Assembly: GCF_034314085.1 (NCBI RefSeq)
Contig: NZ_JAVIWI010000001.1
Coordinates: forward strand, 1-64,000
Direction: 5' to 3'
Source of the DNA: Undibacterium sp. 5I1
GTDB taxonomy: Bacteria > Pseudomonadota > Gammaproteobacteria > Burkholderiales > Burkholderiaceae_D
DNA: 64,000 nt
Made by a program: the position numbers and the translations under genes. Within the stretch, counting starts at the first letter, position 1; each line of letters starts with the position of its first letter. The notes beneath the pieces are model-generated. The model saw nothing but the letters and a program-made list of their open reading frames with translations. It was not told the DNA's origin and searched no databases. This document shows positions 22,967 to 64,000 of this stretch, piece after piece.

Positions 22967-23374
22967 TTACAGACTGGTCGCTTGTTCGGCAGTTTTCCGC
23001 TCTATCAATTCTATTTTGTAGCCGTCAGGATCTTGTACAAAAGCGATAACGGTCTTGCCGCCTTTCACTGAACCTGCTTCACGCGTTACGTTGCCGCCTC
23101 TGGCTTTTACTGCATCACATGCCTTGTACGCATCTGGCACTGCGATCGCGATATGTCCATACGCGCTACCCAAATCGTATTTTTCGACGCCATAGTTGTA
23201 GGTCAACTCTAGTTCTGCGTGATCAGGGTTATTGCCATAGCCGACAAAGGCGAGGGTATATTTGTACTCGGGGTTATCCGATGTCCTGAGCAATTTCATA
23301 CCCAACACTTCAGTATAAAAATCAATCGAGCTTTGTAAATTACCGACGCGTAACATGGTGTGTAATAGACGCAT
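22967..23374 (-). CDS. gloA: lactoylglutathione lyase (glyoxalase I)
   Basis: A 135-aa metal enzyme converting the methylglyoxal-glutathione hemithioacetal to S-lactoylglutathione. Metal ligands can be placed at His5 (LLHTML), Glu near residue 56 (HAELELTYN), His near 75 (YGHIAIAV) and Glu near 122 (GYKIELIE). A good AAAGGA ribosome site supports the start. It is the last gene of the leftward block glyQ-glyS-gmhB-plsC-ygjP-like-gloA, although a repeat remnant separates it from the previous gene. Confidence 0.96.
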
Positions 23375-23390
23375 AATAAAATTCCTTTAA

Positions 23391-23475
23391 ATATACTGGA
23401 TATGAGTATGATAATTGAAGCACAGATTGTCCATAGAATGATTGGACGATCTTCTAAAAACTATAGATACTCCCC
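23391..23475 (-). repeat. dispersed repeat R2, degenerate copy a
   Basis: Between the metalloprotease-like gene and gloA. The core GTCCATAGAATGATTGGAC is almost the same as the core of copy d, but the terminal TATACTCCCC / GGGGAGTATA pairs are altered. The right side merges with a CTCCCC...GGGGAG hairpin overlapping the stop of the neighbouring gene, which may serve as its terminator. Confidence 0.45.
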
Positions 23476-24426
23476 TTAAAATACGGGGAGGTCGTGTGCT
23501 GCATGCTGTTTTAATGCATGCTTAGCATGTTCAAATTCTGGGAACACCGATTGTACTGTCGCCCAAAAGCGGGGGCTGTGATTCATCTCTCGCAAATGCG
23601 AGAGTTCATGCGCGATCACATAGTCAATCACCGTCAGAGAGAAATGAATCAGCCGCCAGTTCAGACGAATTTTACCTTGCGAGGTACAAGAGCCCCAGCG
23701 CGTAGTCGCAGCAGACAGTGCCATTGAATGATAACTAACATCCAATTTTTCCGCATAGACAGGCAAGCGCTCTAAAAATACCCGGCGGGCTTCTTGCTGC
23801 AACCAAGCCTGTACCCGGTCTTTGAGTTGTTGCTCCCCCGAGTCCGCAGGCAGACAAATTCTCAGCTCGTTACTATCGCTGTCTAAATGAATGCCCAGCG
23901 ATTGCGTGGCAAGAATTCGCAAAGTCAGTTGCTTGCCCAGATAAGGTAATTGAGCGCCATCTGCCCATACCATTTTAGGTTGAACCTGATGCGTAGCCCG
24001 TTCACGGCGCTCGGTAATTTTGGCGACGATCCAGCGCTGCTTCTCGTGAATTGCCTGCTCAATATCGCCAATTGTTACCCAGCGTGGTGCAGTGATTCTC
24101 AGTCCCTCGTCATTGATTAAAAAGCCAATGGTACGTCGCTTGGAGCGCAGCAGACTATATTCCAGCCATTGCTCTTGCAGGCGGATCTGACGTTTATTCG
24201 GAGATTTTTCTGGCGGCGTGGATGATGTCTTTGGCGGTGCCGGAAGACTGGGTGGCGTTGCTTTTTTCGGCGCCGGATCTTGCATTTTACGGCGGGGCGA
24301 TTGGAACATCCCGCCGTCGTCAGTCCGGCTATCTGAAAACAAATCCAGTTGCAGTAAAAACTGCAACGGCTTGGTCAATAATGAGAAACGTGATTTCAAA
24401 AAACTCTCTTGTTCCTGATTGATCAA
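23476..24426 (-). CDS. YgjP-like zinc metalloprotease-type protein (DUF45)
   Basis: A 316-aa protein with a C-terminal DUF45/YgjP domain. The zinc motif AHELSHLREMNHSPRFW (HExxH) is near residue 268, preceded by LSAATTRWGSCTSQGKIRLN, a family hallmark. The first 80 residues are Pro/Lys-rich and probably disordered. The start is uncertain: 24426 is a TTG only 13 nt after the plsC stop, and ATGs at 24309 and 24285 are possible. The substrate is unknown. It follows plsC closely and is probably co-transcribed. Confidence 0.82.
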   Translation of the reverse strand: MINQEQESFLKSRFSLLTKPLQFLLQLDLFSDSRTDDGGMFQSPRRKMQDPAPKKATPPSLPAPPKTSSTPPEKSPNKRQIRLQEQWLEYSLLRSKRRTIGFLINDEGLRITAPRWVTIGDIEQAIHEKQRWIVAKITERRERATHQVQPKMVWADGAQLPYLGKQLTLRILATQSLGIHLDSDSNELRICLPADSGEQQLKDRVQAWLQQEARRVFLERLPVYAEKLDVSYHSMALSAATTRWGSCTSQGKIRLNWRLIHFSLTVIDYVIAHELSHLREMNHSPRFWATVQSVFPEFEHAKHALKQHAAHDLPVF

Positions 24427-30269: not shown

Positions 30270-30653
30270 TTTTTTCTCCTTGTCGTGTTGGTAGTGCGTG
30301 ATGACAGTGAATATCGATTACCAGCACTTGTTTTAAATAAGGTACTACCCGGTACCACTATGCAGAAAAAATTACCAATAAATCTATTAACACTGATAAT
30401 TTCATGAGAGTACTTGTTTTATTGAAACGACAAAACAAAAATGTCAAAAACTTGTAGAAACTGTTGGATTGATACCCTAAGCTCGTGCATAGATACAGTT
30501 AACAAATCGCTTTTCGCATCCCGCCGTATAGGGCAATCAGACTGCAGATCGTTGGACGGAACTATTGTCGCTATTGCCACTCTGACAGAAGTTATTTTTA
30601 GCATGTCGATTTTGTCGCATCTTATTCAACCCCAATTTTTATCCGAGGTAAAA

Positions 30654-31439
30654 ATGTATTCCACTCGATCGACGATGTTGTCCCGTATCTATTCAGTTGC
30701 TTTGATTAGTACCCTGTCAATCGGATCGCAATTTGCTTATGCCGACGGCTTAAGTGATTTAAAGACTGCTTTGATCAGGTTGCAAGGCGCGACACCGGTG
30801 AAGGCAAATTTGGAAGCAAAGACATGGAGTCGTCAGGGGGATGGTAAAGACGCAGATGAACGCAGTGGTATCGCCAGTGTGCAGATAGAGGAAGGGCCGC
30901 GTGGCTTGCAGGTGTATTACAGCAGAGACTTGTTGAGTCGACTGGAAACCGAAGAACGCGCCCGTGAAAAAGATCCAAAGGCCAAAACCCCAACGCTTTC
31001 TGCGCTCAACGATATCAATTCTAGTGAGCTGCGTCCGTTGATTTATGCCGCCAATAGTTTGTCCCGTGCAGTAGAAAAAGCCATATTCAAAAATGAAAAA
31101 GCGGATACCTACAATGGTAAGCCAGCGCGTCTGTTGAGTTTTGAAATGACCATCGACAAGATGACCGAAAAGGAGCGTAAGTATATTAAAAAGTATGAAG
31201 GTAATCTGGATATCTGGATCGCTGCCGACGGCACACCGCTGGCCAGTCGCATGCATGAAACCGCATCCGGGCGTGCTTTTATTGTGATTAGTTTTGAAAC
31301 CAGTAATGACAACGATCAGGTCTACGGTTTAGTCGGTGACCGTTTGGTGATGATACGCAAAGAGACCAAAAGCAGCGGTGCAGGTGCAGGCGAGAAGGGT
31401 GAAATGCGTAGTATTAAAACGCTGCAATTGCAGTCCTGA
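30654..31439 (+). CDS. exported protein of unknown function
   Basis: A protein of about 261 aa with an N-terminal signal peptide (LSRIYSVALISTLSIGSQFAYA). I place the start at 30654, where GAGGT precedes the ATG; the frame is open to 30441, but that extension looks non-coding. The mature part is hydrophilic, with a Lys/Glu-rich middle (KMTEKERKYIKKYEG) followed by LDIWIAADGTPLASRM, reminiscent of beta-sheet lipoprotein-like domains. No family is recognised. It lies alone, divergent from the zinc-ribbon pair. Confidence 0.75.
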   Translation: MYSTRSTMLSRIYSVALISTLSIGSQFAYADGLSDLKTALIRLQGATPVKANLEAKTWSRQGDGKDADERSGIASVQIEEGPRGLQVYYSRDLLSRLETEERAREKDPKAKTPTLSALNDINSSELRPLIYAANSLSRAVEKAIFKNEKADTYNGKPARLLSFEMTIDKMTEKERKYIKKYEGNLDIWIAADGTPLASRMHETASGRAFIVISFETSNDNDQVYGLVGDRLVMIRKETKSSGAGAGEKGEMRSIKTLQLQS

Positions 31440-31836
31440 TGCTTGCTTGGCGTTGCTATTGCAACCGCCTTTATTCTGTTATCTATTCTACCATCTCGCA
31501 GCATAGATAAATATATACTCCTATCCTGTATATTTAATTGTCCATAGATTAATTGGTCTATAAGCCAATTTTAATAAAAAATAGGGGGAGTATGTTGAAT
31601 TTTATCTATTTTTTGCTGCGGATTTCCCCATTTGATATGTTATTCGAGGCGAGACTGCTTTTTGTCTTACTCTGAAGTACGCCTTGATTTCCTGCATTTG
31701 CCCTGTTCACGCCCTCCGCCTATTTCCGTATCTAAAATGATGCAAATATTTTCAACTGTGCAGTAATTTTTGCGCATTTCTGTGACAATGTTTCTTCATC
31801 TCAATTCTGTTATTTCATCTAAAGAAAGCACATCCT
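31440..31836 (+). other. gap holding repeat R2 copy b
   Basis: No gene is seen. The region contains R2 copy b (31514-31593) and AT-rich DNA. The S9 peptidase gene starts at its right end, with a weak AGAAAG ribosome site. Confidence 0.6.
31514..31593 (-). repeat. dispersed repeat R2, copy b
   Basis: An 80-bp element beginning TATACTCC and ending GGGGGAGTAT. Its reverse complement aligns end to end with copy d, sharing ATACTCCCC, a T-rich arm, CTTAT, CCAAT, TATGGACAA, TTAAATATA and AGGAGTA in the same order and spacing. Confidence 0.8.
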
Positions 31837-34800
31837 GTGTTCTCCAGACAATCGCTCCTACCTTCCGCCGCCATTCTGTTTTTTAGTCTGACCAGTCAAC
31901 TCGGCCTGGCGCAAACTGCTACTTCAGCCAATCTAGCTAGTCAAACTATGACTGCAAGCAATACCACGGCGAACAACAAAAAAATGATCACTCACGATGT
32001 CTATGCTAATTGGCGCAGCATTCAGGGCGATAAGCTTAGCCGGGACGGGCAGTGGGCAGCGTATGCATTGGTCGCGCAAGAAGGTGATGGCGAGCTAGTC
32101 ATCCGTCATCTTGCCAGTGGACGCGAATGGCGTTACCCGCGCGGTACTGCACCTATCTTCAGCGCAGACGCTCACTATGTTGCATTTGCCATCCAACCCA
32201 CTCGTGCAGAAATCGACAAGGCCAAAAAAGAAAAGAAGAAAGGGGAGGATCTACCGAAACCCGGTTTTGGCGTAATGGATCTAGCAACGGGTAAAGTCGA
32301 GACGCTGAACCGCGTTAAACGTTTTGGTTTTCCAGAAGAAGGCGGCAATTGGCTGGCAGTCTTGCTGGAGGCACCGAAAGACGAGAAAAAAGATAGCAAG
32401 AAAGAATCTGAAAAAGAATCCACAACCGCAAAGCCGGACGATATTCAAGATGGCATATCCGACCAGCAAATGGCTGGCGCTGGCAGCGCATCCGCCAGTG
32501 GCAAAAAGAAAGAGGCAGGCAGCGAGCTACAACTATGGGATTTGACTAGCGGAAAGCACATTAGCTACAAAGACGTAGCGGAGTTTGTCTGGGCAAAAAA
32601 TGGTGGTTTGCTGGCCTATAGTGTGTCAGTAAAAGACGTCGTAAAAACGTCTGAAAAAGCTAGCGATAAGCTAATAGAGAAAGTGACAGAAAAATCAGCA
32701 GAGAAAGTGACAGAAAAAACCAATGAAAAAATAGGCGAAAAAACAGCTGAAAAAATAAATCAAAAAACCGACTCAACAATCGCTAGCAGCACCGACAAAA
32801 TAAAAGAAGCAGAAAAATCCAAAGAAGCCTCTAAGGAGGGCGTGTATTTATTCAGCACCGCCGATAGCAGCACGCAAAGTCTATTAACAGGTGCCGGAAG
32901 CTACAAGCAGTTGAGGTTTGACGACGCAGGTACGCAACTCGCCTTTGTCAGCAACCGTGATCAATTGCTTGCCCTGCGAAATGAAAAATCGAGTGAAAAA
33001 CTCGTTGAAAATACTACGCAAAAAGAAAAAAATAAAGAATCCGACAAAGCCAAAGACCCCGACCCAACAGCCTTCTCGCTGTTCTACTGGAATACCAAAG
33101 ATCAGGCCGCCAGCTTATTAGCCAACGGCGCAACTCCAGGCATGCCAATCGCCTGGTCACCTAGCGAATTTGGTGAGGTCGCTTTCAGCAAAGACGGCGC
33201 ACGGCTGTTTTTCGGCACCGCAGAAGATCCAAAAATAGAACCCAAAGACGCGCCAGAAGCGATGAAAGTCGATCTATGGCATTGGAAAGACCCAGAGCTG
33301 CAATCGATGCAAAAGGTCAAGGCAGAAAAAGAAAAGCAACGCAGCTATCGAGCCGTCGTGCATCTGGCCGACAAGCGTTTTGTGCAGCTGGCGAATAAAA
33401 CTATGCCGGTTGTCATCACCAATGACAATGCCCAGTTTGCGCTGGGTATCAGCGATTTGCCCTATCAGATTTTGCAGTCATGGGATTCTTTATATTACGA
33501 CGCCTATGCATTGGATTTGCAAACTGGCCAAAGTAAGCCCTTAGCAAAAAAATTACGCTTCGAACCCGCTCTGTCATCTGCCGGTAAATATATGCTGGCC
33601 TTTGATGCGGCGACCAGCACCTGGTTTAGCTGGAGTACCGCTGACGGTAGCAAGACCAACCTGACAGGCAAACTTAAAGTCCATTTTGAAGATATTAAAC
33701 AAGACACGCCAGAGCCACGTTCTGCCTACGGCTTTGCAGGTTGGACAGAGAATGACGCCAGCGTTGTTGTGTACGACCAGTTCGATTTATGGGAGATCAA
33801 TCCTGTCACTCATGTCAGCACTAATTTGACTGCTGGTTATGGCCGTAAAAATCATTTGGAACTGCGCTACGTCAGCTTAGATAAAGAACAAAAATTTTTG
33901 CCATCCGACCAAAATTGGGTGCTCGCTACGACCAATGATACTGATCGTTCTAGCGGCTATGTACAACAAAATCCCAAAGGGGGCGAGCCTGTCAAACTGA
34001 TCCATGCGAACAAAATGATCAGTGGTTTATTGAAGGCAAAGCTGGCCGATACTGTCTTATTCACCCAGCAAAGTTTTGAAGAATTCCCTGACCTGTGGGC
34101 CAGCAATTTAAAAATGCAATCACCACAAAAAATCAGCAACGCTAATCCGCAACAAAGCCAATACAACTGGGGTACGCAAGAGTTGATCAGCTATACCACC
34201 GCCGACGGCAAAAAATTAAAAGCCTTGCTTGCCAAGCCAGACAATTTTGACCCGAAGAAAAAATACCCGATGATGGTCTACATCTACGAAAACATGACAG
34301 ACAATTTATACCGCCATGTCCCGCCAGCACCTAGCCAGAATATCAATGTTACTCGCTACGTCAGCAATGGCTATATCGTGTTACGTCCGGATATTGTCTA
34401 CACCACCGGTTACCCGGGTAAGAGCGCGATGAACACTGTATTGCCAGCCATCCAGCAAGTCATTGCCAAAGGCTATGTTGATCCGCAACGTGTCGGCATA
34501 CAAGGCCACAGCTGGGGCGCGTACCAGATTAATTATCTGCTGACGCATACCAACATCTTCCGCGCGGCCGAGGCTGGCGCATCAATGGCAAATATGATCA
34601 GTGGTTACGGCGGCATTCGCTGGGGCACAGGGATGAGCCGCGCTTTTCAGTATGAACGCGGTCAGAGTCGTATCGGCGGCACGCCTTGGGGTGATCAGGC
34701 GAAGTACATCGAAAATTCACCTATCTTTAAAGTCGATAAAGTCCAGACGCCTTACCTGACCATTCACAATGATGAGGATGATGCGGTTCCGTATTACCAA

Positions 34801-35112
34801 GCAATTGAGTTTTTTACAGCGTTGCGACATCTAGGAAAAGAAGCCTACTGGTTCAATTACAACGGTGAAAAACATGGCTTAAGAGAGCGCGACAACATCA
34901 AACATTACACCGTTCACATGGCAGAATTTTTTGACCATTATTTGCTAGGCAGTCCACGCCCAGAATGGATGGATAAACCGGTTCCTTATCTGGAGCGCGG
35001 TAAGCGTGATGTGATGGGATTGTTTAAAACGGCGGAGCAAAAAGAGCAGGAGGCAAAAGCCGATGCCGATGCTAAAGCGAAAACGGCTAAGAAAGAGCCG
35101 GCACTAAACTAG
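31837..35112 (+). CDS. secreted S9 prolyl-oligopeptidase-family peptidase
   Basis: A 1,091-aa protein, long for the family. It starts at a GTG and has a signal peptide (LLPSAAILFFSLTSQLGLAQ). Residues about 50-750 form a beta-propeller; residues about 790-1070 an alpha/beta-hydrolase domain with nucleophile Ser in QGHSWGAYQINY, Asp in HNDEDDAVPYYQ and His in NGEKHGLRERDN. Three propeller loops carry Lys/Glu/Ser/Thr-rich low-complexity insertions, the longest near residues 268-333 built of EK-V/I-x-EK units. A Lys/Ala-rich tail follows the hydrolase. The substrate is unknown. Confidence 0.88.
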   Translation: MFSRQSLLPSAAILFFSLTSQLGLAQTATSANLASQTMTASNTTANNKKMITHDVYANWRSIQGDKLSRDGQWAAYALVAQEGDGELVIRHLASGREWRYPRGTAPIFSADAHYVAFAIQPTRAEIDKAKKEKKKGEDLPKPGFGVMDLATGKVETLNRVKRFGFPEEGGNWLAVLLEAPKDEKKDSKKESEKESTTAKPDDIQDGISDQQMAGAGSASASGKKKEAGSELQLWDLTSGKHISYKDVAEFVWAKNGGLLAYSVSVKDVVKTSEKASDKLIEKVTEKSAEKVTEKTNEKIGEKTAEKINQKTDSTIASSTDKIKEAEKSKEASKEGVYLFSTADSSTQSLLTGAGSYKQLRFDDAGTQLAFVSNRDQLLALRNEKSSEKLVENTTQKEKNKESDKAKDPDPTAFSLFYWNTKDQAASLLANGATPGMPIAWSPSEFGEVAFSKDGARLFFGTAEDPKIEPKDAPEAMKVDLWHWKDPELQSMQKVKAEKEKQRSYRAVVHLADKRFVQLANKTMPVVITNDNAQFALGISDLPYQILQSWDSLYYDAYALDLQTGQSKPLAKKLRFEPALSSAGKYMLAFDAATSTWFSWSTADGSKTNLTGKLKVHFEDIKQDTPEPRSAYGFAGWTENDASVVVYDQFDLWEINPVTHVSTNLTAGYGRKNHLELRYVSLDKEQKFLPSDQNWVLATTNDTDRSSGYVQQNPKGGEPVKLIHANKMISGLLKAKLADTVLFTQQSFEEFPDLWASNLKMQSPQKISNANPQQSQYNWGTQELISYTTADGKKLKALLAKPDNFDPKKKYPMMVYIYENMTDNLYRHVPPAPSQNINVTRYVSNGYIVLRPDIVYTTGYPGKSAMNTVLPAIQQVIAKGYVDPQRVGIQGHSWGAYQINYLLTHTNIFRAAEAGASMANMISGYGGIRWGTGMSRAFQYERGQSRIGGTPWGDQAKYIENSPIFKVDKVQTPYLTIHNDEDDAVPYYQAIEFFTALRHLGKEAYWFNYNGEKHGLRERDNIKHYTVHMAEFFDHYLLGSPRPEWMDKPVPYLERGKRDVMGLFKTAEQKEQEAKADADAKAKTAKKEPALN

Positions 35113-39757: not shown

Positions 39758-40315
39758 ATGCCCTCCTTCGACCAACTTACGCTACAAACTGAACGTTTAC
39801 TACTGCGTCCATTTAAGTTAGACGATGCTGCCGACTTGCTGTCGATTTTTTCTGATCCGCTTATCACAAAATATGGCATTACTTTGCCATGGACAGAGTT
39901 AGAGACTGCGCAAAAAAGGATACAGCGTGATTTAAAAGAAATGCCTGTGGGTGACAGTTTGTGTTTGGCGATAGTGCGATTATCTGACAATCAATTATTG
40001 GGTGACTGTTCGCTTTTTCATTTCTCTGAACAATGTCGCCGTGCCGAAATTGGTTATGTCTTGAAACATGCAGCCTGGGGGCAGGGCTATATGCAAGAGG
40101 CTTTGCTGGCATTGATTCAGTATGGATTTTCTGAACTTCGGCTCAATCGTATTGAGGCGGATATTGATCCCATGAACCTGGCATCTGCCAGATGTCTGGA
40201 GCGACTTGGCTTTAAGCTGGAGGGCATGTTGCGCGAGCGCTGGATTGTGGCCGGCGTTGTGTCAGATTCGGCTATGTATGGCTTGCTTGCGAGTGACTGG
40301 GCTGCGCGTAGTTAA
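39758..40315 (+). CDS. GNAT N-acetyltransferase, RimJ/RimL type
   Basis: A 185-aa enzyme. The opening LQTERLLLRPFKLDDAADLL is typical of RimJ/RimL-like acetyltransferases; the acetyl-CoA region is RRAEIGYVLKHAAWGQGYMQ followed by EALLALI, and the end contains NRIEADIDPMNLASARCLER LGF, the usual family segment. The substrate, an N-terminal amine or another amine, cannot be told. It has a separate transcription context: a cysteine-rich small gene upstream and repeat R2 copy c downstream. Confidence 0.88.
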   Translation: MPSFDQLTLQTERLLLRPFKLDDAADLLSIFSDPLITKYGITLPWTELETAQKRIQRDLKEMPVGDSLCLAIVRLSDNQLLGDCSLFHFSEQCRRAEIGYVLKHAAWGQGYMQEALLALIQYGFSELRLNRIEADIDPMNLASARCLERLGFKLEGMLRERWIVAGVVSDSAMYGLLASDWAARS

Positions 40316-40372
40316 GCGTTGGAGCTTGCTGATCAAGGCATGAATTCTATAGTGATAGAGTGGTGTTATTTG

Positions 40373-40454
40373 TATACTCCTGCGGTGTATGTATTAGTCG
40401 TCCATATAAAGTTTGGTCAATCAGGCATATTTATGGAAAATTAGGGGGAGTATA
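40373..40454 (-). repeat. dispersed repeat R2, copy c
   Basis: An 82-bp element with left end TATACTCC and right end AGGGGGAGTATA. Its reverse complement aligns with copies b and d (CCCCCTA, ATTTTC, AAAT, GCCT, ATTGACCAA, TATATGGAC). It lies between convergent genes. Confidence 0.8.
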
Positions 40455-40488
40455 TTCATTTCTGACAAGGATAAGATTTATCTCTACG

Positions 40489-40908
40489 TCAGTTTGAGTT
40501 GAAAAACCTTGTCGCATAATATCCTGCCGATCCCGCCGCTGCGCTGACACATGCGCCCCAGATGATGTCGATGACGGTGAGTGTTGGAGACCAGCCTTTT
40601 AAGGTGGCAAGATTGCTGAGGTCGTAGGTGCCGTAGGCAACAATACCCAACAGGCCACTCATCAGTACAGCGGTCAGCCAGCTTTGTTCACGTACGGCTG
40701 GCATGATGGCGAATACCAGCAAGCCAAGCAGATAAACGAGATAAAAAGTGGCAGCCGGAATCATCTTGGGCTCGGCCAGCATCAGCGGGCCGAGTTGAGA
40801 TTGATAAAAGTTCTTGGCTACGATCGTAAGCCAGATAAAATCGAGTACGCAAAATACTACTGCCGCGACCAGATAGGCAACAAGGTAAGTGTTAAACGAT
40901 TTTGTCAT
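40489..40908 (-). CDS. DUF2177 membrane protein
   Basis: A 139-aa integral membrane protein with four predicted helices, beginning YLVAYLVAAVVFCVLDFIWL and containing GIVAYGTYDLSNLATLKGWS followed by VIDIIWGACVSAAAG, both typical of DUF2177. The activity of the family is unknown. It stands alone; the 272 bp to its right hold nothing I recognise. Confidence 0.85.
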   Translation of the reverse strand: MTKSFNTYLVAYLVAAVVFCVLDFIWLTIVAKNFYQSQLGPLMLAEPKMIPAATFYLVYLLGLLVFAIMPAVREQSWLTAVLMSGLLGIVAYGTYDLSNLATLKGWSPTLTVIDIIWGACVSAAAGSAGYYATRFFNSN

Positions 40909-45567: not shown

Positions 45568-45879
45568 AGGGATTACAAGCGGTCGCTGTCAGTATCGCGC
45601 TAGCTTACGTAAAGTTGAATTCCTTGTCTATCCGTTACGCTTAGATTTTCCACTTTGACTAGGATGACTTCTCAGAAGCGTAGATCGGATGCCTTGTTCT
45701 GCGTCATTCACCGATGTTTCGCTATTGACCGAACGATCACTGCTATTGGCCGAAATCAGGAAGACATTTTTCCCCACATCTATTATCTTGAACATGTCGA
45801 CGCAGCAAGAGCAAATTGATTAAAAAATATAGTGGGTCTGTACAAAGTACGATCCGTTCATTTTAATAAGGGAGTCATG
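45568..45879 (+). other. gap before the LiaF-like pair
   Basis: About 310 bp without a recognised gene. It has a short imperfect direct repeat GCTATTGACCGAA / GCTATTGGCCGAA (45721-45755). At its right end AAGGGAG (45868-45874) is a strong ribosome site for the next gene. Confidence 0.5.
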
Positions 45880-46296
45880 ATGAACTCTGATATTTCGCAA
45901 GCTAGTATTCAACAATACAGAAAACAACGTCAACGTAAATCGGTGATCTGGGGATTGGTATTGATCGCAGTCGGTACTATTTTTTTATTAGAGCGGCTGG
46001 GGTATGTTGATTTGCACCCTTACATCGGCGAAAAAATTCGCTGGTGGTACGGCTGGCCACTGGTGATCGCTATCGTTGGTTTGGTTGAGGCCTTAAGTGC
46101 CACTATGCTGGTGCAGGTGATTAAAGGGATCTCGCAAATAGCCATAGGATTGTGGCTGTATGTTTGTCTGACTCAACTCTGGGACTGGACATTTCAAACC
46201 AGCTGGCCGATTATCCTCATCATTTTTGGCGTTACTTGGGTCGCTACCGGCATAACGAATTTGTCAGAAAAATCAAATAAGGAATCACAATCATGA
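45880..46296 (+). CDS. LiaI/LiaF-type small membrane protein
   Basis: About 138 aa, started at 45880 because AAGGGAG is 5 nt upstream (45877 also possible). Helices include VIWGLVLIAVGTIFLLERLG and WPLVIAIVGLVEALSATML, with a WPIILIIFGVTWVATG near the end, the pattern of the LiaF transmembrane domain (DUF5668). It overlaps the next gene by 4 nt (ATGA), so the two are coupled. No enzyme motif is seen; a sensing or accessory role in envelope stress is inferred from the family. Confidence 0.75.
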   Translation: MNSDISQASIQQYRKQRQRKSVIWGLVLIAVGTIFLLERLGYVDLHPYIGEKIRWWYGWPLVIAIVGLVEALSATMLVQVIKGISQIAIGLWLYVCLTQLWDWTFQTSWPIILIIFGVTWVATGITNLSEKSNKESQS

Positions 46297-55779: not shown

Positions 55780-57810
55780 ATGTCCCACGGCCTTAACCAA
55801 CCCCAACGCGATGCAGTCAACTATATGGACGGCCCTTGTCTGGTGCTGGCGGGTGCGGGATCGGGTAAGACACGGGTCATTACGCAAAAAATCGCCAACC
55901 TGATCGAAAAGCATGGCTATGATCCCAAGCACATTGCCGCGCTGACGTTTACGAATAAAGCCGCGCTAGAGATGCAGGAGCGCATTGCTAAGATTTTGCA
56001 GGAGCCTAAAAAAGCTAAGCAACTTACAGTGTCGACTTTTCACTCTCTTGGCGTCAAAATTTTACGGCAAGAGGCGCGGGCCTTAGGTTTGAAGGACCGG
56101 TTTTCGATCATGGATAGTGATGATTGCTTTTCTTTGGTGCAAGACTTAGCAATCACGACAGATAAGCAATTGATACGCCGTATCCAGACCGCAATGTCGC
56201 TCTGGAAAAATGGATTGATCGATCCCGAGCTGGCAATCCAGCAAGCTCAGGATGAGGATGAGGCCACCGCCGCCCGGATTTATCGCAGCTATGTAGCGAC
56301 CTTGTCTGCTTACCAGGCGGTTGATTTTGATGATCTGATCCGCCTGCCTGTTGAGTTATTCCGTACCAACGAACAAGTACGCGATAAATGGCAGCGCCGT
56401 TTGCGCTATCTGCTGGTGGATGAGTATCAGGATACCAATACCTGTCAGTACGAACTGGTTAAATTACTCGTCACCGGTATAGGTAAAAAACCGATGTTCA
56501 CTGCTGTGGGTGACGACGATCAGGCGATTTACGCCTGGCGCGGTGCAACGATAGAAAATTTGAAGACGCTGGGCATCGACTTCCCCGATTTAAAGCTGAT
56601 CAAACTGGAGCAAAATTACCGCTCCAGTACCCGCATTTTGCAGGCAGCGAATTCTGTGATTGGCAATAATCCTAAATTATTTGATAAATCGCTCTGGTCA
56701 GAACACGGCCTCGGTGATCCGGTCAAAGTCTTGGGTATGCAAGATGATGAGCAAGAGGCGGATCAAGTCGCCATCATGATTTCTGCCCATCGCTTTGAGC
56801 GTCGCGCCAAATGGTCGGATTACGCCATTTTGTACCGTGGCAATCATCAGGCGCGCGTGATTGAGAAAGCGCTGCGTAAAGAGCGTATTCCTTACACGAT
56901 CTCTGGCGGGCAAAGCTTTTTTGATAAAGCGGAGATCAAAGATATTATTTCTTATCTGCGTCTGATCGCTAACGAAGACGACGACCCGGCCTTCATCCGT
57001 GCGATCACCACGCCCAAACGCGGTGTCGGTCAGGCTACCTTAGAGGTGTTAGGCGCATTCGCCGGACAATGGCAATGCTCCTTATTTGAAGCCGTATTCA
57101 AAGGTGGGATAGAGGCCAAACTGACGGATCGCCAGCTCACGCCTTTACGTGATTTCTGTACCTTCATCAATCAGGTTGAAGCACATGCGCACCGCGAAAC
57201 CCATGCCGGAACCTTGCTCGACGATTTGATGAAAGAGATCAATTATGAAGGCTATCTTTACGACAGTTTTGATGATCGTGCCGCGCAAGCCAAATGGCAA
57301 AATGTGCTCGATTTCACCAACTGGCTCAAAGAAAAAGGCAGCGGCGGCAAAGAAGGTACCGACGATCATCGCAGCTTGTTGGACTTAACCCAGATGGTCG
57401 CATTGATGACCATGATGGAAGGTAAGGATGAAGATCCCGATGCCGTCAGAATGTCCACCTTACATGCATCCAAGGGGCTGGAGTTTCCCCACGTGTTTTT
57501 GGTTGGAGTGGAAGAGGGCATCTTGCCGCATAAAGGCGACCCTGATGCGCCGGTAGAAACCATCGCCGCCCGTATCGAGGAAGAACGTCGTCTGATGTAC
57601 GTCGGCATCACCCGCGCTCAGCGCAGTCTGCATATCACCTGGTGCAAAAAGCGCAAACGTGCTGGTGCGCCGGTGCATTGCGATGTCTCCCGCTTTATTA
57701 AAGAGATGAAATTAGACGAGGGTGATGCCGTGCCGACCGAGGCAGAAACGATCACGCCGCAAAATCGTCTGGCGAATTTGAAAGCCTTGTTAAGTCGTCC
57801 AAAAGAATAA
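55780..57810 (+). CDS. rep: ATP-dependent DNA helicase Rep
   Basis: A 676-aa SF1A helicase that moves 3' to 5' and clears proteins ahead of replication forks. Motifs are all present: Q motif LNQPQRDAV, I AGAGSGKTRV, Ia LTFTNKAALEM, II LVDEYQDTN, III GDDDQAIYAWRGA, IV LEQNYRSS, V STLHASKGLEFPHVFLVG and VI EERRLMYVGITRAQ. Length and the MDGPCLVLAGAGSGKT opening favour Rep over UvrD or PcrA. It is followed by repeat R2 copy d. Confidence 0.93.
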   Translation: MSHGLNQPQRDAVNYMDGPCLVLAGAGSGKTRVITQKIANLIEKHGYDPKHIAALTFTNKAALEMQERIAKILQEPKKAKQLTVSTFHSLGVKILRQEARALGLKDRFSIMDSDDCFSLVQDLAITTDKQLIRRIQTAMSLWKNGLIDPELAIQQAQDEDEATAARIYRSYVATLSAYQAVDFDDLIRLPVELFRTNEQVRDKWQRRLRYLLVDEYQDTNTCQYELVKLLVTGIGKKPMFTAVGDDDQAIYAWRGATIENLKTLGIDFPDLKLIKLEQNYRSSTRILQAANSVIGNNPKLFDKSLWSEHGLGDPVKVLGMQDDEQEADQVAIMISAHRFERRAKWSDYAILYRGNHQARVIEKALRKERIPYTISGGQSFFDKAEIKDIISYLRLIANEDDDPAFIRAITTPKRGVGQATLEVLGAFAGQWQCSLFEAVFKGGIEAKLTDRQLTPLRDFCTFINQVEAHAHRETHAGTLLDDLMKEINYEGYLYDSFDDRAAQAKWQNVLDFTNWLKEKGSGGKEGTDDHRSLLDLTQMVALMTMMEGKDEDPDAVRMSTLHASKGLEFPHVFLVGVEEGILPHKGDPDAPVETIAARIEEERRLMYVGITRAQRSLHITWCKKRKRAGAPVHCDVSRFIKEMKLDEGDAVPTEAETITPQNRLANLKALLSRPKE

Positions 57811-57838
57811 AATTGAGAGATATTTAAGCCGATTTAAA

Positions 57839-57921
57839 TATACTCCCCATTATTTTTATAGAAATAGCCTTATTGTCCAATGATTATATGGACAACTTAA
57901 ATATACTAATAGGGAGTAATA
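57839..57921 (+). repeat. dispersed repeat R2, copy d
   Basis: An 83-bp element with TATACTCCCC at the left and GGGAGTAATA at the right, and the central palindrome GTCCAATGATTATATGGAC. It is the best copy and serves as the reference. It starts 28 nt after the rep stop. Confidence 0.85.
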
Positions 57922-58007
57922 TAGTTTGAAGATTCGTTTAGCAGGCAAAGAATACCGTGCACACTTGAGGATTGATTTTATTTCCATCTGATGAAAACTA
58001 TTTTGAA

Positions 58008-58853
58008 ATGACGAATCAGACCGACGATAAGCTAGTTTCGGTTGACGGGCAAAGTACAGAGCAGCAAGCAGTACAAGGGGTGATTGAGCAAGCATTCATA
58101 CCAATATCGCCGTCAAACCCGTCAAACTCAGCAAACGGCTTGCATCATTATTGCAAAACCGAGTTACAAGATTTCTGGCGATTTATTAAACGTCCTACCC
58201 GCCGTTTGCAACCATCATTAAATGCCGGAGGACGCTGGCAGAGGCTAGCTTTTTTTCTATTCCTGAGTGTGTTGTTCTACCTGATTTATATGGTCACGAT
58301 AGGTTGGGCAATTGATGCGCTGACGAGTATCACCTCAGATTTAGATTTCTCTAATTTAAAATTATTTGCCTTTGCCGCATTGATCATAGCGCCCATTTTG
58401 GAGGAATTAATTTTCCGTCTTGGGCTTAGAAATGCGACCTACACCTTATTTTTCGGACCTATCTTAGTGACGATTTTTTCGGGCAGTTTTTTCGTCACGC
58501 TGGGATTGACGGCTGTGATCGTTTTAATGGCGTTGGTGTTTGAAATTCAAGAACGCTATCGAACTAGAAATGGAAAATCGGGGCATAATTTTTATCTAGG
58601 ACGCCAGTTTATCCAGGCTTACCCTAAGGTATTTTGGCTATATGCATTTGCTTTTTCGTTCGTACATATTGCCAACCACAGCTTTGACGATGCCTCTGGG
58701 TTTCTGGTAGTTTTTGCTGTTATCCCACAATTGGTATTGGGTATTTTTCTTGGCTACTTACGCTTACGTGATGGCATTACCAGCGCGATGAGCCTGCATT
58801 TTTTGAACAATCTGCTGGCAGCTAGTCTGATTTTTATTTCGCCAGATTCTTAA
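58008..58853 (+). CDS. CPBP-family intramembrane metalloprotease-like protein
   Basis: About 281 aa, started at the ATG at 58008 (an open frame reaches a TTG at 57972). A polar N-terminus is followed by at least six helices. The CPBP (Abi/Rce1) motifs are visible: PILEELIFRLGLRNATY (EExxxR), then FAFSFVHIANH (FxxxH) and SLHFLNNLLAA (HxxxN). Members cleave membrane substrates or bind prenyl groups; some protect against bacteriocins. No bacteriocin gene is nearby. Confidence 0.82.
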   Translation: MTNQTDDKLVSVDGQSTEQQAVQGVIEQAFIPISPSNPSNSANGLHHYCKTELQDFWRFIKRPTRRLQPSLNAGGRWQRLAFFLFLSVLFYLIYMVTIGWAIDALTSITSDLDFSNLKLFAFAALIIAPILEELIFRLGLRNATYTLFFGPILVTIFSGSFFVTLGLTAVIVLMALVFEIQERYRTRNGKSGHNFYLGRQFIQAYPKVFWLYAFAFSFVHIANHSFDDASGFLVVFAVIPQLVLGIFLGYLRLRDGITSAMSLHFLNNLLAASLIFISPDS

Positions 58854-59795: not shown

Positions 59796-61697
59796 ATGAA
59801 TCAAAGTCAGCCAAACAATAATGCCCGTCCTAACGCAGATCAGATTGATGATGGTAATCAACGTGTGCTGTTACTGTATCAAGCCTGTTTAGCAGAAATT
59901 GCAAAAAATGCACCGCTGGCTGAAACCCTTAGTCTGGTTACACATGGTATTGAAGAGCAATGCTCAGGATTGATTGCCACCGTTTTAGTGCTGACAGAGT
60001 ATCATCAGCTTGGGATGGTGGTTGCACCCTCTCTGTCGCCAGCTTGCGTTGCTGCGATCAGCAAAATGACGGTTGGTATGGACCTACTAGGATGTCGCTG
60101 CAATGTGGTAAGTGCGCCTGATATTGAAACTCGAGCTGACGATCCATGTACATACACCAGCTTGTTCTGGAATAACTTACAAGTGTTGGCCGCGCAACAC
60201 GAGTTGTTTGTCTCGTCAGCTTTACCTGTTGTTAACGGATCAGGTACCCTGATCGGGATGATTGCTTTGTTTGCAAAACATAGCGGCAGAATTTCTGTAG
60301 CCGATCATCACAGGATCTCTGGACTTAGTAGTTTAGTTGTCATCAGCATAGAGCGCCATCATGACCAACGCAGAACTATTGTAGCCAACGAGGCAATGAG
60401 ACAGAGTGAAGCCAATATGAGCCGTATGGCATTGGCGATTGAGGGCAGTGCGACTGGCATCTGGGATCGCCATATTCAAACCGGAGAAATTCATTATTCG
60501 TCAGGCTGGAAAGCACTATTAGGCTACACCGAGTCAGAAATATCCAACCGGATTGAAGACAGCTATACCCGCGTTCATCCTGATGATCTGGCTTATGTGC
60601 AAGCAACGATCCGTGCTCATTTTGAAGGTAAGACCGATAGCTATGCAGTAGAACATCGCGTGCGCTGTAAAAACGGCAGCTATATCTGGGTTTCTAGCCG
60701 CGGTAAAATTGCGGTTCGTGATGCCGACGGTACCCCATTACGCATGATAGGTACCACTACCGATATCACAGCAATGCACCTGCTGTCAGACCGGCTGCAA
60801 CACAGCGTTGATCTTGTCACCAATCTCACTAACGAAGTACCTGGATTGGCATATCAATATCAACAACTACCCAATGGCCCAGAACATTTTTCTTATGTCA
60901 GCGAAGGCATCAAGGATATTTATGAGTTGTCGCCAGCGCAAATCACGGATACAGTTGCGCTAGTCCATCAACTGATACATCCAGACGATTTTGGCGCTTA
61001 TCGTGCTGCGATCGATGCATCTGCCAAAGACCTGCATCAGTTGCACTTAGAGTTTCGCGTTAATCTGCCGCAACAAGGGTTGCAGTGGCGTCAGATGGCG
61101 GCTCGTCCACGCCGCTTGCCTGACGGGGGCACCTTATGGCACGGTTTCATTACCGATGTCACCGAGCGTAAACGGCTAGAAATTGAGTTGCAGGCACTTG
61201 CCACTATCGATTTTTTAACTCAAATACCCAACCGTCGTTATTTTATGGGACGCATGGCAGAAGAGCTGGCGCGCGTTCAGCGCGCCGTTGGTAAACCATC
61301 GGCAGTGCTGATGTGCGACCTTGATCATTTTAAAAGTATCAATGACCGGCATGGGCACGCCGTCGGTGACCTTGTATTAAAACACTTCGCTAACATTTTG
61401 CGCGACGAACTACGCAAGAGCGACTCCGCAGGCAGAGTTGGTGGTGAGGAATTTGCCGTCGTCTTATCCGGTACCAGCATCTTAGATGCGAATGTGTTTG
61501 CCCAGCGCGTCCAAAAACAGTTGCATGACACTCCGGTCAACGCCAACAATCAAATAATTCCAATTACTGTTAGCATCGGTATTGCCATGATGTCTGCCAG
61601 TGACACCAGCCCAGATGCCTCGCTGTCCCGTAGCGACATGGCTCTGTACCTGGCCAAGGAAAGTGGCCGCAATAAGATTACGATTGCGGCAGACTAA
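59796..61697 (+). CDS. GAF-PAS-PAS diguanylate cyclase
   Basis: A 633-aa cytosolic c-di-GMP synthase. Domains in order: GAF (about residues 25-190), PAS with PAC (about 205-325, ending MIGTTTDITAM), a second PAS (about 335-455, ending HGFITDVTERK) and GGDEF (about 465-633). The active loop is GRVGGEEFAVVLSG, an intact GGEEF. Five residues before it stands RKSD, a product-inhibition I-site (RxxD). No membrane segment is seen, so it senses internal signals. No EAL or effector gene is nearby. Confidence 0.93.
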   Translation: MNQSQPNNNARPNADQIDDGNQRVLLLYQACLAEIAKNAPLAETLSLVTHGIEEQCSGLIATVLVLTEYHQLGMVVAPSLSPACVAAISKMTVGMDLLGCRCNVVSAPDIETRADDPCTYTSLFWNNLQVLAAQHELFVSSALPVVNGSGTLIGMIALFAKHSGRISVADHHRISGLSSLVVISIERHHDQRRTIVANEAMRQSEANMSRMALAIEGSATGIWDRHIQTGEIHYSSGWKALLGYTESEISNRIEDSYTRVHPDDLAYVQATIRAHFEGKTDSYAVEHRVRCKNGSYIWVSSRGKIAVRDADGTPLRMIGTTTDITAMHLLSDRLQHSVDLVTNLTNEVPGLAYQYQQLPNGPEHFSYVSEGIKDIYELSPAQITDTVALVHQLIHPDDFGAYRAAIDASAKDLHQLHLEFRVNLPQQGLQWRQMAARPRRLPDGGTLWHGFITDVTERKRLEIELQALATIDFLTQIPNRRYFMGRMAEELARVQRAVGKPSAVLMCDLDHFKSINDRHGHAVGDLVLKHFANILRDELRKSDSAGRVGGEEFAVVLSGTSILDANVFAQRVQKQLHDTPVNANNQIIPITVSIGIAMMSASDTSPDASLSRSDMALYLAKESGRNKITIAAD

Positions 61698-61778
61698 TTC
61701 GTTTTAGGCGATAAAAATATCGCTTTGTTAATGCATCTTCAAAGAAATTTAGCGGTCTATTAGAAAATCTGGGTTGAA

Positions 61779-61860
61779 TATACTCCCCTACTTTTTTCTT
61801 AAAATAAGCCGGATGCCCAGACTTTGATTAGATAATTAAAACATATGGGTAGGGAGTAAT
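61779..61860 (+). repeat. dispersed repeat R2, copy e
   Basis: An 82-bp element with TATACTCCCC at the left and GGGTAGGGAGTAAT at the right. The centre (GCCCAGACTTTGATTAGA) is less conserved than in b-d, but the T-rich left arm and AATAAGCC agree. Confidence 0.75.
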
Positions 61861-61907
61861 TTTTTAATGCAGGCAGTTTGCAAGCATCCAGCTGCTACCG
61901 GTTAATT

Positions 61908-64000
61908 TTAAGCCCTGACATCCTTCAATTTTTCTATCCGGCGTTGTAATACAAAAATCGGTTGCGCCCACTCGGTGTCTTTTTTCTTTTTGCTGGTGAT
62001 CAGCGTCAATTCTGATGGATCGTAGACGTCGGTGTTGTGTGTCAGCGGGGTGGTCATTAGATACTGTGCATCGGTGTTTTTCAGGAATTCACCGACTAGC
62101 TGAATATTGCGGATGTCCAGATGAGCAAATGGTTCGTCAATGAAGACAAAGCCGCCGGAACCATCTTCGGATTTCAGCAAACCGATTAGCAGGATCAGCG
62201 ATTTCATCACTTGCTGACCACCAGACGCTTCGCCGTCATTCATACCGATCGGGCCTTTGCCGTCGAACTTAAATCGCACATGCAGGCCAGCTTGAGATAA
62301 CTGGATGTCGTCATTCTCCAATTTGACCGGATCGGTATGGACTTCGATCCCTGCGAGTTCGCCCAACTGTTTGATGTTTTTGCTGTAAGTCTTAATCGTA
62401 AACCGCAACCGGTCCATGTAGGCAGCACGGGCATTAACGGTGGCTTCTGAGGCGCGGTTATTCTGGTAGCGACGTTCGTCAGTTTCTGCCTGTCGACCTT
62501 GCAGCAATGCGTTGAGCCGGACAAACTGATCCACTACTGTGGAGTCAATCTCCCAGTCTACACGCGCCAGATTATTGCCCAGACTACGCAAGCGTAATTC
62601 TATCTGGTGGACGTTTTCATGTTCTGCGACTAGCTGTTGTCTGTGCTTGGCGCGCTTCCAGTTGAGGGGTAATTGATGCCAGGTCTGGCGCATGCTGGTT
62701 AGCGTTTCAAAATGTCCTTTACGTTCATCTGCCAAGCGTTTTTCTGCACTACGTAATTGGGATTCTGCGTCGGCAATCGCGGCTTTAGCTTGTTCCCATT
62801 TCAGATGGGCGACGGTACGTTGTTCGGTCGCTGATTTAAGCAAAGGCGAAATCTCACCAAGGCGGCTACCGACGACGATCCTTTGCTGTCTGAGAGGTTG
62901 TATGTGATGGCTAGCCTCTTCAAATTCAGCGTGACGGGCGCTGAGTTCTTTTGCCGCATCGACACCGGCCAGGCGCGCTTTAAAGGCACTGATTTCGCCA
63001 GCAAGTTTGCTGATGGTAATCGTGAGCTGGTCCTCTTGCGATTGTAATCGTGGTAAAGAGCGTTGCAATGCCTCCAGCCTTTGTGTACGACCTGCACTGC
63101 CAAAACGATAGCGTGAAGCCTCGACAAACAGCGACCGACCACCACGACGTTCGCCGTGATAGGCGTCGGGTGTGATCCATTCTTGTGACTTGGATTTTGA
63201 GTCGGACTGTGATTTATTAAAACTAAGGCCGACCTCAACAGAGTCGACCATTTCAATACGTTGCAATTGCTCGATCAACCAGGCAGGGGCAGCGGCGGTG
63301 AAGTTGACTACCGATAGCAGACTTTTATCTTTGACCACCGGTGCGTGGATACGTTCTGGCACGATGAAGTGACCATAGCGTTGCTTCTCACCGACGCGAT
63401 AGGCTGCGCTGGCATCACTGGCTTTATCCAGCAAAATGACCGAGGTGTAACCGCGCAAGACACCTTCGACCGCGCCTTGCCATTTGGGATCAGTCACTTC
63501 GACGATCTCCGGCAGCATACTGTGTGAAATGCCTGCATCGTTCAAAGCACGGCGCATATTGCGTACGTTCTCAGGATCGGGCAAGGTAGCTTTGCCTTGC
63601 AAGGCGGCGATGGTTTCCAGCTCGGCTGCGATGCGGTTAGACAGCGTGTCGCGCTCTTGTTTATTGCGTGATAGTTCGGCTTCTTTTTTCTCTAAATCGT
63701 CCGCAACGTTAGCGACGTCGGCATCTGCCTCTGCCGCAAGTTTTTGCAAGCGCGCTTTTTGCTCAAGCAGACTTTCTTGCGGCTTCAGCTTAGCGTTGAT
63801 GTGTTGTAGTTTTTCGCGTAGCTGTGATTCTTCTGCTTCTAATGCTGCCTCGTGTTGCTGCGCTTCGGAGCGACTTTGTGCTTGCATTGCCAGGTTGCCA
63901 CGGCGCTCTGACAAACCGTCTTCTTGCGTTTTTAATAGACGTTTTCCATTGCGCAGACTTTGACTGGTAGCAGACGCCTGTTGCAAGGCCTCGTGATATT
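61908..64000 (-). CDS. SMC-like ATPase, C-terminal part (cut by the window edge)
   Basis: At least 697 aa; the frame is still open at 64000, so the N-terminus with Walker A lies outside. Long coiled coils (about 63960-63640 and 63090-62500) flank a hinge-like region (VTDPKWQGAVEGVLRGYTSV, YGHFIVPERIHAP). The C-terminal head has the ABC signature EASGGQQVMKSLILLIGLL and Walker B GGFVFIDEPFAHLD. The hinge phrase WQGAVEGVLRGY resembles MksB/JetC-type condensins; RecN- or SbcC-like proteins are alternatives. No partner gene follows it, so any partners would be upstream, outside the window. Confidence 0.8.
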   Translation of the reverse strand, partial: YHEALQQASATSQSLRNGKRLLKTQEDGLSERRGNLAMQAQSRSEAQQHEAALEAEESQLREKLQHINAKLKPQESLLEQKARLQKLAAEADADVANVADDLEKKEAELSRNKQERDTLSNRIAAELETIAALQGKATLPDPENVRNMRRALNDAGISHSMLPEIVEVTDPKWQGAVEGVLRGYTSVILLDKASDASAAYRVGEKQRYGHFIVPERIHAPVVKDKSLLSVVNFTAAAPAWLIEQLQRIEMVDSVEVGLSFNKSQSDSKSKSQEWITPDAYHGERRGGRSLFVEASRYRFGSAGRTQRLEALQRSLPRLQSQEDQLTITISKLAGEISAFKARLAGVDAAKELSARHAEFEEASHHIQPLRQQRIVVGSRLGEISPLLKSATEQRTVAHLKWEQAKAAIADAESQLRSAEKRLADERKGHFETLTSMRQTWHQLPLNWKRAKHRQQLVAEHENVHQIELRLRSLGNNLARVDWEIDSTVVDQFVRLNALLQGRQAETDERRYQNNRASEATVNARAAYMDRLRFTIKTYSKNIKQLGELAGIEVHTDPVKLENDDIQLSQAGLHVRFKFDGKGPIGMNDGEASGGQQVMKSLILLIGLLKSEDGSGGFVFIDEPFAHLDIRNIQLVGEFLKNTDAQYLMTTPLTHNTDVYDPSELTLITSKKKKDTEWAQPIFVLQRRIEKLKDVRA

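Follow-up and report, generated by a model that had tools for sequence, protein, structure and literature searches.

Whether the repeats interspersed in bacterial chromosomes are parasites or working chromosome parts is an old question. ERIC/IRU elements are imperfect palindromes of about 100 bp between genes and are not known to have a transposase of their own. Correia elements and other IS630-type MITEs are short, with inverted ends and TA-rich borders. For the BIME and REP elements of Escherichia coli, a role in gyrase binding and genome organisation is proposed in two papers (PMC6379681, PMC3733652), one of which also describes binding of BIME-2 by gyrase in vivo (PMC6379681). Here we describe a repeat family of Undibacterium, called R2, for which literature searches turned up no description. 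A sequence-only reading of the locus knew of no named family with these ends, in line with our Rfam searches, which gave no match at the elements studied here (E up to 5) or at the loci of 12 relatives (E up to 0.5).

The window, that is, the whole 64-kb stretch of DNA analysed, holds an R2 element at each of the five places that had been picked out by eye, four of them with strong profile matches. Copy c, of type 1, lies at 57837..57924 on the plus strand (profile match 57838-57918, E 9.2e-19) between genes assigned by Pfam to a UvrD/Rep-type helicase (55780-57810, +) and a CPBP/Rce1-like protease (57972-58853, +), and its counterpart in the sister genome G035 (L119; contig C92) occupies the corresponding position. 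Within the collection searched, the one close named relative of the gene beside copy c (86% identity) is in an Undibacterium MAG, JANXTO010000224.1. Its left end module, ATACTCCCC (57840..57848, +), is followed by a T-tract and an A-tract, then by a core dyad of 19 bp, GTCCA-N9-TGGAC (57875..57893, +), and by a right dyad of the ATAC-N9-GTAT type, here ATAC-N9-GTAA (57903..57919, +). Copies a and b, also of type 1, are on the minus strand: copy a at 31512..31596 (profile match 31510-31596, E 6.5e-19), between tandem genes at 30441-31439 (+) and 31837-35112 (+, Peptidase_S9 by Pfam), and copy b at 40370..40456 (profile match 40372-40456, E 7.4e-17), between convergent genes at 39758-40315 (+, GNAT) and 40489-40908 (-, DUF2177; both by Pfam). 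Copy d (type 1, 61777..61863, +; profile E 4.2e-12), with the most degenerate core of the four, also lies between convergent genes, a PAS/GGDEF gene at 59796-61697 (+, Pfam) and a minus-strand gene ending at 61908. The fifth copy, of type 3, occupies 23389..23478 (-) between a glyoxalase gene (22967-23374, -) and a YgjP-like gene (23476-24426, -; both by Pfam). Its end module is inverted, with GGGGAGT 28 nt before the dyad, which explains its weak profile score (match 23388-23451, E 0.0075). Copies b and c had been read as matching d on the opposite strand; this is right for b and wrong for c, because c and d are both on the plus strand and a and b both on the minus strand. Similarly, the centre GTCCA...TGGAC ascribed to b, c and d is exact, as GTCCA-N9-TGGAC, only in c and the fifth copy and is degenerate in a, b and d. 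A very weak type-3-like candidate at 46172-46190, inside or beside the ORF 45832-46296, has six mismatches and no profile match and is probably due to chance.

R2 is abundant in the chromosome of the home genome (4.88 Mb, two contigs). The dyad GTCCA-N5-14-TGGAC, a pattern that is its own reverse complement and hence has equal counts on both strands, occurs 257 times genome-wide, against 35 in the reversed control. The composite pattern TACTCCCC-N26-GTCCA-N9-TGGAC, with up to 2 mismatches, gives 165+144 = 309 matches genome-wide and none in the reversed control. The conserved ends and central palindrome described from the window therefore belong to a real family, with far more than a few copies, and these copies share their ends. 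In a sample of 1264 kb (three stretches, 27% of the chromosome), a rule-based search found 133 elements (106 of type 1, 21 of type 3, and 6 of type 4), about one per 9.5 kb, against 5 in the same sequence reversed; a profile search of the sample gave 142 matches, 132 of them near full length, against none in the reversed sequence. Extrapolation from the sample would put the total at about 500 per chromosome. The profile search found no R2 on the second contig, C2 (171 kb), which carries integrase, primase, Tn3-type, and IS genes among the 10 of its ORFs that were scanned and looks like a plasmid; the lack of R2 may simply mean that this plasmid is recent. Contig C2 also has two ORF pairs that agree in their lengths (373 and 1108 aa) and arrangement ( L241:870-5322 and L249:4579-9031), probably a duplicated mobile module, the L241 pair being an integrase and a DnaG-type primase.

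The anatomy of R2 was defined by aligning 95 of 97 type-1 matches with single-base gaps only. The plan reads ATACTCCCC, T-tract, A-tract, GCC, the 19-bp dyad, a spacer, and ATAC-N9-GTAT. The aligned blocks are AATATACTCCCC, then about 4-5 nt further on TTTTT, AAA, GCC, and ATTGTCCA-N9-TGGAC; the core is separated by 8 or 9 nt of A/T-rich sequence from ATAC-N9-GTAT, sometimes N8. Columns outside the element carry about 0.05 bits. Among the 95 copies, ATACTCCC is exact in 92, an unaltered ATAC occurs in 87 and an unaltered GTAT also in 87, and the GTCCA/TGGAC pair is perfect in 46. In an alignment of 61 sequences (A1), ATACTCCC is invariant, as are A69 C70 and G80 T81 A82 of the right dyad (first-sequence numbering). 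The near-equal length remarked on in the window reflects a fixed geometry, as ACTCCCC (up to one mismatch, before the core) stands exactly 33 nt from the dyad in 55 of 60 sampled copies. In types 3 and 4, the ATACTCCCC and T-tract module is inverted in place, 28-29 or 17 nt from the dyad. The terminal inverted repeats of type 1 are ATACTCCCC and GGGAGTAT, with a degenerate right-hand GGG, and are perfect in several relatives' copies. Pairwise identity among the 95 copies averages 67%, with a 99th percentile of 81% and a maximum of 88%. AT and GC blocks alternate along R2 with periods of about 22 and 11 bp, the peaks of the AT profile lying near 21.5 and 11.5 bp (P values from shuffled columns, which take no account of local correlation); a clean nucleosome-like period of 10.5 bp was not seen, the period being mainly 22 bp. 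One home copy (C1:3739424-3739510, L067) has a GCCCA/TGGGC core, a form known from the relatives G015 and G014.

When genes are called simply from ORFs, 102 of 107 type-1 copies lie outside ORFs, which bears out the intergenic position, often after genes or between convergent genes, noted in the window. Of these, 66 are in tandem gaps, 29 in convergent gaps, and only 7 in divergent gaps, against 334, 119, and 139, respectively, of the 592 background gaps of at least 90 bp. Copies in tandem gaps show no preference of orientation relative to the genes (34 same, 32 opposite). The lack of orientation bias, together with the convergent and divergent pattern, suits a role at the DNA level, away from promoters. 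It is very improbable, in our view, that R2 elements are operators, bound by a transcription factor whose regulon would be very large: the fixed spacing of the 19- and 17-bp dyads would be expected of such sites, but the copies seldom lie in divergent gaps and often lie between convergent genes.

The elements are also spread out along the chromosome. With hits less than 300 bp apart merged (two pairs in stretch C, 68 and 247 bp apart), the 84, 23, and 19 gap-located elements of the three stretches each occupy a gap of their own. Their mean spacing is 9.6 kb, a scale matching the '10 kb domains' of supercoiling referred to in PMC3420936. In the 864-kb stretch, the elements are spaced more evenly than under a placement that keeps the observed preferences for gap class and length (CV 0.69, expected 0.90+-0.09, P 0.0034), with 12 gaps below 4 kb where 23.8 are expected (P 0.0006). 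Stretch C points the same way in its CV (P 0.031; short gaps P 0.09), and in stretch B (200 kb) the evenness is not significant (P 0.26 for CV, 0.49 for short gaps). The genes enclosed by close element pairs appear, from their translations by eye, to be ordinary chromosomal genes, with no transposase recognised.

Comparison with the sister genome G035 allowed single copies to be followed. All 26 home elements for which both flanks were found in the G035 stretches used have a counterpart there, of equal type and orientation. In the reverse direction, both flanks of 26 G035 elements could be located at home, and all 26 have a home counterpart. The G035 stretches were a non-random set, one part taken from contigs known to carry elements and the other part mostly chosen for an element resembling a home one. 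In 23 type-1 pairs, substitutions affect 17 of 552 cells (3.1%) in high-information columns, 42 of 368 (11.4%) in middle columns, and 59 of 368 (16%) in low-information columns, the classes being defined on the home genome, and close flanks differ at 69 of 949 positions (7.3%, measured only where lengths agree). Between the two species, TATACTCCC is unchanged in all 207 cells, which, set against the 16% in low-information columns, shows that individual copies are selected. At two loci (A 152920 and A 168872), the flanks align poorly and the element blocks are kept, and at another (C 149658) the element diverges more than its flanks, in drifting columns. This pattern of kept blocks and drifting columns indicates that selection acts on each copy, and not that copying is recent. 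With key letters and places kept while other letters drift, the tested copies look like working sites rather than junk. The drifting columns diverge more than the close flanks, for example at C1:3749663; locally raised mutation or gene conversion might account for this excess.

These results bear directly on mobility. The window had suggested a miniature element moved by a transposase acting in trans, and this proposal finds no support: all 26 testable copies are shared with the sister species, the 95 aligned copies never exceed 88% identity, the plasmid has no copy, and no parent IS was seen in the sample; mobility in trans is unproven. A parent IS with the same ends was sought by eye wherever ATACTCCC occurs in the 1264-kb sample and none was seen: 38 such sites lie outside type-1 copies, 10 of them in ORFs, and the other 28 are mostly inverted-module elements with a few degenerate or GCCCA-type copies. 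As each of the 26 testable copies has its partner in the sister species, the comparison offered no empty site at which a target duplication might show. One could still read R2 as a decaying non-autonomous element, MITE or ERIC-like, whose ends ATACTCCCC/GGGGAGTAT were once the recognition sequences of a trans-acting transposase, perhaps one that targeted TA, and whose copies are now inactive remnants. The inverted terminal sequences, the hundreds of dispersed intergenic copies, the patchy presence among species (see below), and the end motifs that are conserved in relatives while the middle changes all fit this possibility, which we nevertheless consider doubtful. Against it stand the column-specific purifying selection on fixed copies, the sharing of all 26 testable copies with the sister species, and spacing more even than random in two of three stretches; the closest of the 95 aligned copies are only 88% identical, and no parent IS was seen in the sample. 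A blastn search with copy c against plasmid and phage records and an exact-pattern search of viral contigs also gave no match. An old origin of R2 by transposition is compatible with these data.

The distribution among relatives is patchy. A sequence-only covariance model (E 0.01) run on 78 genomes matched 29, all within the 43 Undibacterium genomes and none of the 35 from outside the genus in that draw. Within Undibacterium, 17 genomes have more than one match, 12 have one, and 14 have none. At least 54 matches each were found in G000, G006, G011, G015, G017, G019, G020, G027, G029, G033, and G035, and the other multi-match genomes are G013 (53), G014 (47), G025 (42), G022 (26), G003 (11), and G021 (3). 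The single matches of G023, G032, G061, and G065 are weak (E 0.002-0.0095) and are taken as chance. As 26 of the 43 genomes have no match or one, the function of R2 must be dispensable or replaceable. Of 145 members of the family drawn for a wider search, 14 match: 6 Undibacterium, 4 of genus g45, 2 of g73, 1 of g74, and 1 weak single match in g61. At E 0.01, six of the matching genomes outside Undibacterium have between 11 and 95 matches each, and 20 short pieces from these six show the R2 plan with other dyads; in g73, for example, GGCCA-N9-TGGCC is accompanied by an inverted GGGGGTAT end, and g45 has CCGCA-N9-TGCGG, while the two g74 pieces keep the ends and have no clear dyad. A 400-kb portion of G015 gave 14 hits at 13 places, with GCCCA/TGGGC as well as GCGCA/TGCGC dyads among them. 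In a midpoint-rooted tree of one gene (rep), built from 30 of the 42 genomes matching that gene, rich and empty species are interleaved and rich species occur in both main clades, which requires repeated loss or gain.

We also considered whether R2 is a REPIN/REP population kept by a RAYT (HUH) transposase. In size, intergenic site, unidirectional or convergent placement, and long persistence, R2 resembles REPs and REPINs as portrayed in the literature (PMC3733652, PMC8049555), but the aligned copies include no abundant master sequence, and we regard this explanation as barely credible. A GTAG/CGTC tag beside the hairpin is lacking in the home consensus; CGTC does occur at the core in G020 copies and in some of the home genome. 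A RAYT link was rejected as a general explanation, as matches to NF047646 do not track R2 across the 43 genomes: they are strong in the element-free G009, G010, G012, G030, and G062, and in the element-rich G013, G017, G027, and G033 the best have E 1e-17 to 1e-20, in longer proteins. A second, longer RAYT-like protein (about 230-310 aa) is found in many Undibacterium species, with or without R2.

One copy has a history of its own. Eight species have a single clear match (G004, G018, G026, G031, G034, G063, G066, and G064; E 2.6e-4 or better), and all eight copies lie at one shared locus, between a SIS-domain gene and a gene for an ABC solute-binding protein, with flanking genes in the same direction and a fixed orientation. 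The genome of G064 is only 56% complete, and this species branches apart from five of the other single-copy species, those included in the rep tree. The solute-binding gene was found in 26 of the 43 Undibacterium genomes, and its upstream stretch was inspected by eye in 23 of these: 15, the home genome included, show the element in the same orientation (the stretches of G066, G004, and G018 ended inside it and were completed from their covariance-model loci), G060 has a relic whose two ends changed alike (ATGCTCCC / GGGAGCAT), and G061, G001, G012, G021, G016, G003, and G062 have none. This copy is therefore old and has been retained in species that lost the rest of the population, an indication of a local role at the SIS locus. 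In G066, G004, G063, and G018 (L290, L291, L292, and L312), the A/T inverted repeat TTTTTTAAAAACTTAAAAAA, or a form one letter off, stands directly before the retained element. The position of the single retained copy before the solute-binding gene is the other point in favour of an operator, the reading discounted above.

The retained copy, between two same-direction genes and in a fixed orientation, also fits action as RNA. R2 might be transcribed at 3' ends or between cistrons and protect, process, or terminate mRNA, with two alternative folds, an outer stem or a core hairpin plus right hairpin. The structured RNA or terminator module suggested from the window gains from the folding, which on both strands is better than that of shuffled sequences (z -2.65 on each for 50 of 95 elements, against -0.43 for 70 control flank stretches), and loses by the lack of clear covariation within the genome and of an orientation preference. 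Among the 95 home copies, compensatory changes were looked for against shuffles in the core, core flanks, outer ends, and right dyad, and none was clear: weak signals appear at 3 of about 40 pairs (43/65, 50/58, and 52/56; P 0.017, 0.009, and 0.042, uncorrected for about 40 pairs), and core columns 46/62 are mismatched (A-A or C-A) in 27 of 95 copies. Between species, the core dyad changes on both sides in 32 cells, against 17.2 after shuffling (none of 500 shuffles reaches 32), with a score of 0.243 against 0.177, although the shuffles ignore relatedness; the right dyad has no both-sided changes. Such core changes would suit recognition of the dyad by a protein no less than a hairpin. The matching changes at the outer ends of the G060 relic would also suit pairing, but the indifference to the direction of tandem genes and an ordinary terminator-like hairpin with a T-run beside one copy (by eye) speak against a general function in RNA. 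We consider such a function unlikely for the family, and RNA action is possible above all at the SIS locus.

The reading that we prefer, tentatively and by analogy, is that R2 is an old miniature-element family now serving as selected multipartite chromosomal sites, similar to BIMEs. It draws on the fixed spacing, column-specific conservation, positional orthology (26/26 each way), and restriction to the chromosome; counting against it, the evenness in stretch B is not significant, 26 of 43 Undibacterium genomes manage with no match or one, plasmid C2 may be recent, the AT period is not a clean 10.5 bp, and both the core covariation between species and the G060 end changes also fit base pairing. 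A role at the DNA level is suggested by the fixed spacing, the indifference to gene orientation, the even distribution, and the scarcity in divergent gaps. R2 would then consist of sites of about 85-90 bp, roughly one per 10 kb of chromosome, selected in gaps at gene ends, each combining, at fixed distances, a directional and invertible end module (ATACTCCCC with T-tract and A-tract) with two dyads, one of 19 bp and the other, ATAC/GTAT, of 17 bp. These sites would now be fixed, having probably spread as a miniature element in the distant past. A dimeric or multimeric protein, either a lineage-specific nucleoid protein or gyrase, may bind or wrap them, and the bound sites could anchor or insulate chromosomal or supercoil domains, as proposed for BIME-2 of E. 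coli. More speculatively, and with considerable doubt, R2 may be the cis half of a lineage-specific chromosome-organising system, in which one dedicated architect protein reads hundreds of evenly placed sites and co-evolves with them, and these decay when the protein is lost. The specificity of this protein would drift between species, as with the GTCCA, GCCCA, GCGCA, and GGCCA dyads, and its loss would let the population decay save for the copy co-opted between the SIS-domain and ABC solute-binding protein genes. Because species with many, one, or no copies occur within one genus, the partner protein could be sought through gene content. For the wider question of parasites or working parts, R2 has the merit that the same copies can be traced between species and that selected and drifting letters can be separated inside one element; a role in chromosome layout becomes directly testable.

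Among known systems, R2 shares with Correia and other IS630-type MITEs its short length, inverted ends, and TA-rich borders, and differs in that no parent transposase was seen in the sample and no polymorphic copy was found. Its likeness to ERIC/IRU is by description only, whereas column-wise selection and even spacing were measured for R2. Like REPIN-RAYT systems, it is a persistent, vertically carried intragenomic population missing from some lineages, but the R2 sample has no master sequence, near-identical pairs, or correlation with RAYT. By analogy, the nearest model is BIME-2. The BIME-2 and REP elements of E. coli are likewise short, palindromic, and intergenic, lying downstream of genes or between convergent genes. 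R2 is set apart from them by its lack of correlation with RAYT and, where BIME-2 is a mosaic of several REP units, by having one unit per gap (hits less than 300 bp apart merged): a single element of 85-90 bp with two different dyads, an asymmetric end module, and fixed spacing.
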